From positions 1,860,001 through 1,924,000 of the forward strand of contig NZ_JACHBQ010000001.1 of NCBI RefSeq assembly GCF_014200405.1: 64,000 nucleotides of DNA, written 5' to 3'. The translations under genes were made by a program, and so were the position numbers. Shown piece by piece: positions 9,432-13,087 of the stretch. The notes under the pieces were generated by a model. That model was given only the letters and a program-made list of their open reading frames with translations, was not told the DNA's origin and did no database searches. Source of the stretch: Cryobacterium roopkundense (lineage in GTDB: Bacteria > Actinomycetota > Actinomycetes > Actinomycetales > Microbacteriaceae). The stretch's first letter is position 1, and each line of letters begins with the position of its first letter.

Positions 9432-9866
9432 ATGTCCAGTCCGTCTTTGAGCGCAGTGCGCGACGATAGTCATATGAGTAGTCCCGGACCCCGAGCTGGT
9501 GGTCCGACCTCGAGAAGGTCGTTCACCCCAGCGCAGAAGCTTGCGTACCTCGCCGCGTATGACACGGCCATCAAGAACAACGAGGGCGGCACTTATCTGC
9601 GCACCGAAGGGCTCTACTCCTCGCAGATCACCGAATGGCGAAAACTGCGTGACGCGGGTGTCCTCGCGGGGAAGAAGCCCGGTGAGAAGATTGGCCGGTT
9701 AACTCCGGAGCAAGCCGAAATCGCCCGGCTACGTCGCCAGTTGAGCAAGACCGAGCAGCGGTTGGAAACGACGGGGGTGGCGTTGGAGATCATGTCAAAA
9801 ATGCACGAGCTACTCGAAAGTCTTTCGAAGAGCTCGCGGGACGAAACACCGTGCGCGTTGCCGTAA
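9432..9866 (+). CDS. IS3-family transposase OrfA (helix-turn-helix)
   Basis: A 144-residue protein. Residues 30-80 form the InsE-like helix-turn-helix (FTPAQKLAYLAAYD, then GLYSSQITEWRKLR), and residues 95-130 a leucine-zipper-like coiled coil (AEIARLRRQLSKTEQRLE). It binds the element's ends. The frame ends 16 bp inside OrfB, which lies in the -1 frame. An A5 run at 9797-9801 (TCA AAA ATG) upstream of the overlap could support -1 slippage to make an OrfAB fusion. That last point is inferred. Confidence 0.9.
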   Translation: MSSPSLSAVRDDSHMSSPGPRAGGPTSRRSFTPAQKLAYLAAYDTAIKNNEGGTYLRTEGLYSSQITEWRKLRDAGVLAGKKPGEKIGRLTPEQAEIARLRRQLSKTEQRLETTGVALEIMSKMHELLESLSKSSRDETPCALP

Positions 9867-10873
9867 TGACCGCGTACCGCGAACTGGCCAGCCGAGGAAT
9901 CAACACTCGCGTCGCGGCCGACCTGGTCGGGATCCCTCGAGCGACAGCCACAAGGAAACGACGCATTCCCGTCCGTGGCCCGGCCCCGGTTCCGGCGAAC
10001 AAGATCGGCGACGAAGGCCGCCGCGAGATCCTCGACGTCGTCAATTCACAGCCGTTCGTGGACCTGCCGCCGATCCAGATCTACGCCCAACTGCTCGACG
10101 CGGACACGTACTTGTGCTCCATATCAACGATGTATCGGGTGTTGAACGAGAACCAGCAGGTCAAGGACCGCCGCCGACAGGCACGCCACCCGGCCCGGGC
10201 GATCCCGGAACTGACGGCGACGGGACCCGGCCAGGTACTCAGCTGGGATATTACGAAACTCGCCGGCCCGATCAAGGGCAAGTACTTCGATGCTTACGTG
10301 ATGATCGATATTTACTCCCGCTACATCGTCGGCGCCTATGTTCACGCGTCGGAATCCGGCGAGCTGGCGGTGGAGATGATGAAGGAGATCTTCGGCATTC
10401 ACGGCGTCCCTCAGGTCGTTCACGCCGACCGCGGCACGTCGATGACGTCCAAGACCGTCGCGGCGCTGTTGTCTGACTTGGAGGTCACCAAATCGCACTC
10501 GAGGCCTCGGGTGAGTAACGATAATCCCTACAGCGAGGCCTGGTTCAAGACCCTGAAGTTCGCTCCGACGTTCCCCGAACGCTTCGGCTCCCTTGCCGAC
10601 GCGAAGACGTTCATGGCCTCGTTCGTCGACGGCTACAACCACGAGCATCGCCATTCCGGGATCGGCCTCAACACGCCAGCAGACGTTCATTACGGCCTCG
10701 CCGAGGCGAAGGCCATCGAACGGGCAGCGACGCTGGACGCGGCACGCGCACGCTTCCCAGAGCGATTCAGCACCAACAAGGCGCCGCAGATCCTGTCCAT
10801 TCCCAAGACGGCATGGATCAATAAACCAGCCCCCAAACCTATCGAGAATGAAGGGCTCGAACTAGCCGCCTAA
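9851..10873 (+). CDS. IS3-family transposase OrfB (DDE integrase core)
   Basis: A 340-residue rve-type integrase. The DDE residues are in SWDITKL, HADRGTSM and SEAWFKTLK, followed by the YNHEHRHSGIGLNTPADVHYG segment conserved in IS3-family OrfB. The frame is open well upstream of the GTG at 9851, as expected when the protein is normally made as an OrfAB fusion by -1 frameshifting. No lesion is visible, so the element may still be active. Confidence 0.95.
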   Translation: MRVAVMTAYRELASRGINTRVAADLVGIPRATATRKRRIPVRGPAPVPANKIGDEGRREILDVVNSQPFVDLPPIQIYAQLLDADTYLCSISTMYRVLNENQQVKDRRRQARHPARAIPELTATGPGQVLSWDITKLAGPIKGKYFDAYVMIDIYSRYIVGAYVHASESGELAVEMMKEIFGIHGVPQVVHADRGTSMTSKTVAALLSDLEVTKSHSRPRVSNDNPYSEAWFKTLKFAPTFPERFGSLADAKTFMASFVDGYNHEHRHSGIGLNTPADVHYGLAEAKAIERAATLDAARARFPERFSTNKAPQILSIPKTAWINKPAPKPIENEGLELAA

Positions 10874-11716
10874 ACTCCCACTGGCCTCATCCACCTTGAC
10901 AAATTCCGGGTCGGCAGCATTCATCAGGGAACAGGTTGTCGCACCGCTCCTCGCAGAGGGCCTGCCAGAAAGCTTCCGCATGTACGGGGTGTGCGAGAAA
11001 GGCGCCGTGTGGTTTGCCATCGGCGCACAGGGAATGGGCGAGATCGCGGTGGACGAGAGCGTCGCGCTCCCGCAAACTGTCGTCGACGCGCTGCGTCTCC
11101 TCGTGCACGAGGATTTCGCCGACACGATGTTCTTCGACGAGACCAAGCAGGCCATGGTGTCGGTGGAACAGCGAACGGATGTCGACAGCGAGGCGTATAA
11201 GGCCTGCCAGCCGGCGTTCAACCAGGCTGCTTTTGCCATCCTGGAGCGGCACGGCCTCGGCGTGCGGTTCGAAGACCAGGTTGCGCCGAACGCGGCCGGT
11301 GAGGTGCCGTTTCGCCTCGACGCCACCATCATCTCAACCGACATCGAATCGGTCACCCTCGATAAGAACCACGCGGCCGAACGCGCCCTTGCCTTCTTCG
11401 CGGAAGGCGGTCCGCTCCCCCACCTGTGGCGCTCCGTCGGCGACTCCCGCAGCGACTACCGCATGGCGGACCACCTGCACGAGGCGGGCTACGACGTGTC
11501 CCACGTGGATGTTCGGCCGCTCGACGGAATCCTCGATCGCCCCTACCCGGTGATCGTGATGGGCGAGCAGATCCACGACGAAGCCGGCGCGAGCTTTCTT
11601 GACCATTGGGTGGAGAAGCTGGGTCTGAGGTAGGAGCAGGTGCGCCCGAGACCGCTGGGCCCTGCAATGAGCAGAAAAGAATAGGGAATCTCAGAGATTC
11701 GACTGGTGCGAGGAGT

Positions 11717-11768
11717 GTGGCGATCGCTCCTTCGTCGCGCCTCCATCAGCGCTTGGATCGAGCTTGTC
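11717..11768 (+). repeat. left half of an interspersed repeat interrupted by the IS110 element
   Basis: The stretch with CTCCTTCGTCGCGCCTC and then GCTTGGATCGAGCTTGTC is a diverged copy of the repeat seen at 19649, 28482, 30197 and 48564. It stops after GTC. The missing continuation GAGATC resumes at 13074, on the other side of the element. An uninterrupted relative of this joint (the complement of GATCTCGACAAGCTCGATC) is present near 14132. Confidence 0.75.
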
Positions 11769-11784
11769 AGTGATGATGGTTGCA

Positions 11785-11955
11785 GGGGGTTGGCCCGGTC
11801 TGACTCGGAGCTTGTCTGACGCTTCGGTTGTCTTTGTCTCGATGCGTCGACCGGTGTCCAGCCCCCGCACGCATTGTCGTGTTCGGGAGCACCACCATGA
11901 CTTAATAGGAGCTTGACTCCAGCCTCTTCACTGACTTGTCTGACGGTGCCCCTGA
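11785..11955 (+). ncRNA. candidate IS110 bridge RNA
   Basis: Two stem-loops lie in series in the leader. The first is closed by GGGGGTTGG and CCGGT (11785-11799) pairing with ACCGG and CCAGCCCCC (11850-11866). Its loop holds GAGCTTGTC (11808-11816), identical to the left target flank, and TCTCGA (11837-11842), complementary to the right flank TCGAGA. The second is closed by GGGAGCACC (11885-11893) and GGTGCCCC (11945-11952). Its loop holds ATAGGAGC (11905-11912), identical to the element's right end, and TCACTGA (11928-11934), complementary to its left end TCAGTGA. This target-loop then donor-loop order is that of known IS110 bridge RNAs. Ends are approximate. Confidence 0.75.
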
Positions 11956-11989
11956 ACACTGACCCTCAAACAGAAGGGCTGTATTCAGC

Positions 11990-13057
11990 ATGACCTATTC
12001 CCGCAAGGATCTGATCCTCGGCGTCGATACGCACAAAGATTTTCATCACGCGGCGGTGATCAACCACGTCGGAAAATCGATCGCCGACCGGAAGTTCGAC
12101 GCCACCTCCGCCGGGTACTCCGACCTCATCGCCTGGGCGACCGGCGTCGGCCGGATCGGCCGCGCCGGCATTGAAGGGACCGGGTCCTACGGCGCCGGCC
12201 TCACCCGCGAACTCACCCGCCGTGGCATCCCCGTCATCGACGTAATCGCGCCGGATAAGCAGCTGCGACGGCTGCGCGGCAAGACCGACCAGATCGACGC
12301 TTACAACGCGGCCCGCGCCGTCCTCAACGAGCTCGCCACGGCCGTCCCGAAGACCCAGGACGGCTTCGTGGAGGCCCTGCGAGTGCTGCGCACCTCCCGT
12401 CGCTTGCTAGTCAAACAGCGCACCGAGAGCATGAATCAGTTGCAATGCCTGATCGTCAGCGCGCCCGCAGACCTGCGCGTGAGCCTCGCGAAGCTCAAGG
12501 CGAAGAACCTGGCTCTGCGCTGCTCAAAGATCCCCGTGCGCAAGGCGGACGACCTCGTCATGACCGAAACAAAGAATGTCCTCCGCTCCCTCGGCAAACG
12601 CTATTTGGAGTTGCTCACAGAAGCCGACCGGCTGATGAAACGCCTCGGCGCCATCGTAAAAGAGCACGCCCCGGAACTGCTCGCCGTGCACGGCGTTGGG
12701 CCGGACGTCGCCGCGACAATGCTGATCGTCGCCGGCGAAAACGTCGACCGCCTCAACAGCGAATCCGCCTTCGCACACCTGATCGGTACTGCCCCGATCC
12801 AAGCCTCATCCGGGAAGACCAACCGACACCGATTGAACCGTGGCGGCCATCGCCAAGGCAACTCAGCGGCCTACCGAATCGTCATGGTCAGGATGAAATC
12901 CCACGAGAAAACCCGCGACTACGTCGTCAAGGCCCTCGCCCGAGGAAAGACCAAACGAGAGGCCATGCGCCTCCTCAAACGCTACGTCGCCCGAGAGATA
13001 TTCCAAATCCTCATCACCATCAGAGAACGCCACCAACAAGCCGCAATCTCAGCTTGA
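11990..13057 (+). CDS. IS110-family transposase (DEDD recombinase)
   Basis: A 355-residue recombinase. The N-terminal RuvC-like DEDD residues are D13 (GVDTHKD), E62 (GIEGTGSYG), D100 and D103 (KTDQIDAYNAARA). A coiled-coil stretch follows (about 130-230), then the Transposase_20 domain with HGVGPDVAATML and the PIQASSGKT segment, whose serine (S273 or S274) should be the second catalytic nucleophile. Length and order are normal for the family, and no frameshift is seen. It would act as a dimer of dimers with the leader RNA to recombine donor and target DNA. Confidence 0.95.
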   Translation: MTYSRKDLILGVDTHKDFHHAAVINHVGKSIADRKFDATSAGYSDLIAWATGVGRIGRAGIEGTGSYGAGLTRELTRRGIPVIDVIAPDKQLRRLRGKTDQIDAYNAARAVLNELATAVPKTQDGFVEALRVLRTSRRLLVKQRTESMNQLQCLIVSAPADLRVSLAKLKAKNLALRCSKIPVRKADDLVMTETKNVLRSLGKRYLELLTEADRLMKRLGAIVKEHAPELLAVHGVGPDVAATMLIVAGENVDRLNSESAFAHLIGTAPIQASSGKTNRHRLNRGGHRQGNSAAYRIVMVRMKSHEKTRDYVVKALARGKTKREAMRLLKRYVAREIFQILITIRERHQQAAISA

Positions 13058-13087
13058 CATCTATAGGAGCATCGAGATCGGGAGTGG

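Follow-up and report, generated by a model that had tools for sequence, protein, structure and literature searches.

A predicted bridge RNA in the leader of an IS110-group insertion sequence of Cryobacterium matches the REP palindrome at its insertion site

Results

An IS110-family element present in five copies

The window analysed here, a 64,000-nucleotide stretch (G000:C1:1860001-1924000, G000 being the element's own genome of 4.53 Mb), carries an insertion sequence (IS) of the IS110 family, set within a repetitive extragenic palindrome (REP). Five full copies, labelled L001-L005, occupy five different chromosomal places in this genome, and comparison of the copies showed that their flanks diverge once outside the REP. 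The features of the window copy are as follows.

11760..11766, + strand: left target half (REP), GAGCTTG; also present in REPs of this genome that lack the element, one such site matching the joined flanks over 28 nt
11767..11768, + strand: left core dinucleotide TC, common to both junctions and the empty site GAGCTTG-TC-GAGA
11767..13071, + strand: IS110-family element, 1305 bp with one TC core copy counted, delimited from the five copies (97-100% identical)
11772..11777, + strand: -10-like GATGAT (4/6), part of a promoter-like pair complete only in the predicted excised circle
11779..11872, + strand: target-binding stem-loop of the predicted bridge RNA, from folding and compensatory stem changes, with a probable 5' end at ~11784
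11808..11816, + strand: left target guide (LTG), GAGCTTGTC; includes the core and equals the left flank, 11760-11768
11837..11842, + strand: right target guide (RTG), TCTCGA; includes the core and is complementary to 13072-13077
11879..11959, + strand: predicted donor-binding stem-loop, from folding, with closing GAC/GTC in 17/17 leaders and a covarying inner hairpin
11905..11912, + strand: left donor guide (LDG), ATAGGAGC; equals the element right end, 13063-13070
11928..11934, + strand: right donor guide (RDG), TCACTGA; includes the core and is complementary to the left end, 11767-11773
11990..13057, + strand: IS110-family recombinase gene, 355 aa; DEDD residues D13, E62, D100 and D103, SSG loop with S273/S274
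13054..13059, + strand: -35-like TTGACA, overlapping the recombinase stop codon
13063..13071, + strand: element right end ATAGGAGCA (left donor half), from the five-copy boundaries and the right ends of relatives
13072..13077, + strand: right core TC and right target half GAGA (REP), from copy flanks and unoccupied sites

In profile searches the recombinase matched NF033542 (E 3.3e-47) as well as PF01548 and PF02371, and its best solved relative by sequence was IS621 (chain 8wt6, E 1.1e-9). The DEDD and serine positions were assigned by eye on an alignment to that chain, whose catalytic residues are given as D11, E60, D102, D105 and S241 in the available text of PMC11208158; the transposase serine lies within SSG at 273-275. 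A DEDD RuvC-like PF01548 domain together with PF02371 and a conserved serine is what marks the IS110 family, to which the predicted protein belongs.

The non-coding ends are unequal, the left extending 221 nt past the core (11769-11989) and the right only 14 nt (13058-13071). A long left end, a short right end and a predicted RNA 5' of the gene point to the IS110 group. In the IS1111 group the RNA lies downstream of the gene, as against upstream in the IS110 group. Immediately ahead of the recombinase start codon, at 11962-11989, a small CCCT/AGGG hairpin might mask the ribosome-binding sequence.

Guide segments and fold of the leader

An earlier note on this DNA had read the leader as a complete bridge RNA, with four guide segments ordered target loop then donor loop. 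The positions given there proved exact to the base, and each segment occurs once only in the leader. Identity of the LTG and complementarity of the RTG to the target top strand, together with the match of LDG and RDG to the joined element ends, are the pattern to be expected of a bridge RNA encoded in the left end (LE). All four guides in order were found in 0 of 50,000 dinucleotide-preserving shuffles of 11774-11989, and three or more together in one, a count made post hoc on segments that the earlier reader had chosen; independent tests come from the sister copies and the relatives described below. Single guides arose by shuffling 128 (LTG), 3606 (RTG), 22 (LDG) and 2172 (RDG) times in 50,000.

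The two serial stem-loops of the earlier note also stood up to folding. A stable fold of this form was obtained, with z = -3.62 for 11767-11989 and -3.92 for 11779-11960, and none of 200 shuffles of either stretch was as stable as the native leader. An alignment (A1) was made of 17 of 21 leaders, leaving out L064, L068, L091 and L098, which have a longer target loop. The target-loop stems show compensatory changes in this alignment, and for the whole structure 90.0% of cells are paired, with a covariation of 0.352 versus 0.161 when shuffled and ≤0.114 when slid. Both loops follow a common plan, GAC - left guide - short hairpin - right guide - GTC. GAC and GTC are invariant in all 17 leaders; invariant pairs by themselves are no evidence of covariation. 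The single-sequence minimum free energy (MFE) fold puts LTG and RTG into separate hairpin loops, whereas the alignment backs an internal-loop form of the target loop. Folding and alignment together thus predict two serial structured loops with the target loop first, as in LE-encoded bridge RNAs. Rfam 15 had no family at gathering score in the whole window, and gave only two chance-level matches (E 1.4 and 3.5) on 11740-12000.

The target is a REP palindrome

All five copies have TCGAGC(T/C)TG on the left and GAGA on the right with the TC core between them. The case that the earlier note held would count against it, the same guides beside unrelated flanks, was looked for here, and 5/5 copies carried the predicted target halves. 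Further out, the bases on the two sides match as arms (GA..TC, GG..CC, TG..CA), which is what the splitting of a single palindrome would produce. Rejoined, the flanks of the five copies are identical to an unoccupied site over 28, 29, 28, 24 and 25 nt, in a comparison that used 30 of the 90 near-match places, those with loci. These 90 places are the unoccupied sites of the own genome within two mismatches of the target, nine of them exact, versus 12 for the reversed control; the sites make up a repeat family. Of the 57 genomes of the genus, own genome among them, 46 have exact sites, and the control had a single match in all 57 together. At the 36 sites of the own genome with at most one mismatch, a hand count of the variable position gave T 20, C 11, G 4 and A 1. 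In the nearest relatives (L114-L116) the sequences on either side are both retained, and a motif search detected no such REP between them; the empty site is therefore shown from other REPs of the genome.

Guide and target alleles agree in five genomes of the genus

In the own genome the guide of L001-L003 is GAGCTTGTC and their sites have T; the guide of L004-L005 is GAGCCTGTC and their sites have C. Twenty leader-match places were found in all, of which 18 were read; L131 and L006 were left unread, and one of those read, L127, gave no allele because its match lacked the first 48 query bases. L006 (G000:C1:2354379-2354412) is a 34-bp, 88% match to the target loop with GTGATGATGG nearby; by eye the surrounding sequence seems unrelated, and the match is probably due to chance. 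The other 17 copies came from five genomes (own included): five in G000, six in G019, three in G024, two in G031 and one in G052. In G019, the leader copies on contigs C3, C27, C28 and C41 lie within ~40 bases of contig ends, as expected where assembly breaks at repeated IS copies.

The sister-genome comparison that the earlier note had proposed came out in favor of co-variation: the variable LTG base equalled the flank base in 17/17 leader copies (10 T, 7 C), with none mismatched at that base; the copies being near-identical, their guides are not independent, yet beyond the REP their flanks are different. Copies of almost the same element, some with a T guide and some with a C guide, thus coexist, each only at REPs with its own base. 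G024 has two copies with C guide and C flank and one with T and T. On a leader tree built with the guide base masked, three label changes were needed, two of them forced by starred branches. We suggest, tentatively, that the genus may re-aim its bridge RNA by single-base changes within genomes, guide and REP alleles coevolving. Should the agreement persist with more copies, the alleles of guide and REP would be sorting against each other.

Guides follow flanks in relatives with other targets

Homologues were present, at the cut-offs used, in 21 of 199 genomes and in 31 of 396 genomes of the order (own in both). We processed 62 loci (own copies included), 47 with an anchored leader and 15 without a readable one; 41 loci, of 21 guide types, had a readable right flank. 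Two duplicates had been removed: L047, whose best match was copy L041, and L071, which repeats the element of L051. A contig scan of 10 loci gave only one close relative, L077, and this coincides with L050; the others, L078-L086, had 21-30% identity and were set aside.

With the RTG taken from leader anchors alone, the 41 elements matched their own right flank at 4.26 of the 6 nt after the core, versus 1.91 for the flanks of others (0/100,000 permutations), the signal covering the first five bases after the core. Because the anchors misplace some LTGs (e.g. L049, L052, L091), the LTG test scanned the whole loop and scored the best ungapped place anywhere in it; L068 likewise had its left end misplaced by anchor reading. 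The LTG score was 6.0 of 7 for self and 4.8 for cross comparisons (36 loci, 21 types; 0/100,000 permutations); since related guide types are not fully independent, the permutation count should not be taken as an exact probability. The covariation of guides with flanks sought by the earlier note therefore held overall in the relatives, but the right guide fitted poorly in some: L052 (1/6), L057 and L093 (2 each), L087 and L103 (3 each).

Relatives L053-L056 and L070 aim at ACCTTGAC/AAATTC, the right flank of L053 reading AACTTC. The window itself holds an uninterrupted target of L053-L055 and L070, at 10892-10907 (CACCTTGACAAATTCC), directly behind an IS3-like transposase gene, so that elements of this IS110 type seem to go in where another insertion sequence ends. 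The left flank of these four, but not that of L056, resembles the end of that gene. The IS3-like element occupies 9432-10908 of the window (ORFs 9432-9866 and 9851-10873); its gene scored 153.9 bits against NF033516, below the cut-off of 160, and had an rve domain match. In L053-L056, L066 and others the left junction core is AC and the right TC, suggesting that donor and target have to agree only in the C.

These homologues bear on whether the recombinase protein alone might recognise the REP, the leader matches being a by-product, for example of GAGCYTG inherited as the element's left end. All flanks of the REP-inserted copies share TCGAGCYTG (in a few TTGAGCYTG), being REPs, so that divergence of the flanks does not by itself locate the left boundary, a point in favor of this explanation. 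However, unoccupied GGTCGAGCYTGTCGAGACC sites hold GAGCYTG without the element; the other-target homologues L053-L055 and L070, compared with their uninterrupted target, have the boundary at the homologous place; and the guides follow the flanks across different targets. Recognition by protein alone is accordingly very improbable.

Donor guides and the predicted circle junction

The six positions of the RDG against the left end were paired in 17/17 leaders (102 cells, 100%), and five of the six show double changes; the left ends of relatives were located via the RDG match, a selection bias on the 17/17 from which the flanking columns and the five-copy boundaries are free. RNAalifold run on the alignment also paired the element left end with the RDG, a donor-guide signal. 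The variable middle dinucleotide of the LDG agreed with the element right end in all 41 anchor-found elements, on anchors that allow only TAG[GA][AG]GC on both sides.

The weak point that the earlier note had named is real: the left donor guide ends at the core, reading GGAGC-T-TG against the right end GGAGC-A-TC, while LTG, RTG and RDG include TC. On our reading of the anchored leaders, the second core base is unmatched by the LDG in every element with a readable right end. Stopping at the core hence looks like a family trait rather than a flaw of this copy. A core included in all four guides is stated for IS621, and was not encountered in the available text as a defining trait of the family.

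Joined, the right end (RE) and LE read TTGACA-N17-GATGAT, promoter-like by sequence, with an exact -35 and a -10 of only 4/6. With TC set as the core of every junction and the best of spacings 16-18 reported, TTGAC[AG] was present in 34/34 elements, own copies among them, and in 30 of these it was exactly TTGACA; spacing was 17 in 28 and 18 in six. The -10 half was weak, with 1 to 4 of six letters among the 34. A start ~7 nt past the -10, near 11784, would give an RNA of ~175 nt and would leave no room for a 5' stem-loop ahead of the target loop.

Discussion

We consider it highly probable that this is an IS110-group IS whose leader encodes a bridge RNA targeting a REP palindrome, inserted at a TC core. 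The guides and their order, the target, the core, the interruption of the REP and the covariation can all be read directly in the DNA.

Still less probable than recognition by protein alone is that the leader structure serves as a cis-regulatory 5' UTR and not as a guide RNA: the hairpin just upstream of the start codon does pair part of an AGAAGGG Shine-Dalgarno-like stretch (alignment columns 209-222), and regulation by small RNAs and 5' UTR structure is reported for ISPpu9 in the available text of PMC8450116, but such a role leaves the covariation and four segments matching outside DNA or element ends unexplained, and the 5' UTR and guide roles are not mutually exclusive.

If the bridge RNA acts as that of IS621 does, the element would leave scarlessly as a circle, joining right-end TTGACA to left-end GATGAT as a promoter from which ~175 nt of leader would be transcribed. 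In complex with the recombinase, the first loop of this RNA would pair with both strands of the REP-type palindrome GAGCYTG-TC-GAGA, and the second with the joined element ends, ATAGGAGCA-TC-AGTGA. The DEDD/serine recombinase would then exchange strands at the TC core, and the circle would go into the REP. Transcription, RNA-protein complex, circle and strand exchange are each drawn here by analogy with IS621.

For bridge-RNA targeting in an actinobacterium the element provides a clean natural experiment. Near-identical copies within one genome, a single guide base apart, lie at matching REPs, which allows the strictness of guide-target pairing, and its evolution, to be measured. With their TC core, this element and its relatives may also serve as programmable recombinases.

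Literature searches, with most subscription papers and preprints outside their reach, found no paper on Cryobacterium and IS110; two papers matching on insertion sequences named the genus once each, and no title on the genus was among the matches listed for bridge RNA, bridge recombinase, or IS110 with REP.

In IS621 an LE-encoded RNA, 5' of the gene for a DEDD/serine recombinase, has a target loop followed by a donor loop (Durrant et al. 2024, PMC11208160). The 5' guide of each loop directs 8-9 nt to the bottom strand and the 3' guide 4-7 nt to the top (PMC11208160, PMC11208158); the target is a REP, and a promoter spans the RE-LE junction (PMC11208160). According to the same source, 85.7% of IS110-group elements have a predicted bridge RNA, for the most part encoded in the LE. 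Our element resembles IS621 in loop order, guide lengths and REP target, and may share its junction promoter (PMC11208160; Hiraizumi et al. 2024, PMC11208158), although its recombinase is only distantly related (E 1.1e-9). Its core is TC and that of IS621 CT. The consensus of 103 orthologues has a 5' stem-loop before the target loop (PMC11208160), whereas the transcript predicted here would start with the target stem and leave no space for such a stem-loop. All four IS621 guides are reported to include the core (PMC11208160); the left donor guide here leaves the second core base unmatched. Most insertions of IS621 are at ATCAGGCCTAC, while its loop encodes ATCGGGCCTAC (PMC11208160), so it tolerates a one-base mismatch. 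Guide and site would match more strictly here (17/17 at the variable LTG base) than in IS621, whose main natural site is one base off.

The seekRNA of ISEc21 (Siddiquee et al. 2024, PMC11187229) likewise comes from an upstream non-coding region and has short matches to both target strands, in a different element with a different target. Insertion in REPs is shared with ISPpu9 (PMC8450116) and the elements of PMC1525189, which differ in host and in REP. Closer at hand, a sister IS110 lineage of the same genome (L044-L048, ~40% amino acid identity) has leader guides that match its flanks (GGTCTC / TCGAGAC) and a REP-type target, with different guides and a different REP arm or type. It has five copies; in one, L048, the left flank is GTCTC and the right end was not found, and one gene of this lineage ends ~220 bp from copy L003. 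The present element would be a new and well supported example, in an actinobacterium, of a kind of element and a mechanism already known from IS621.
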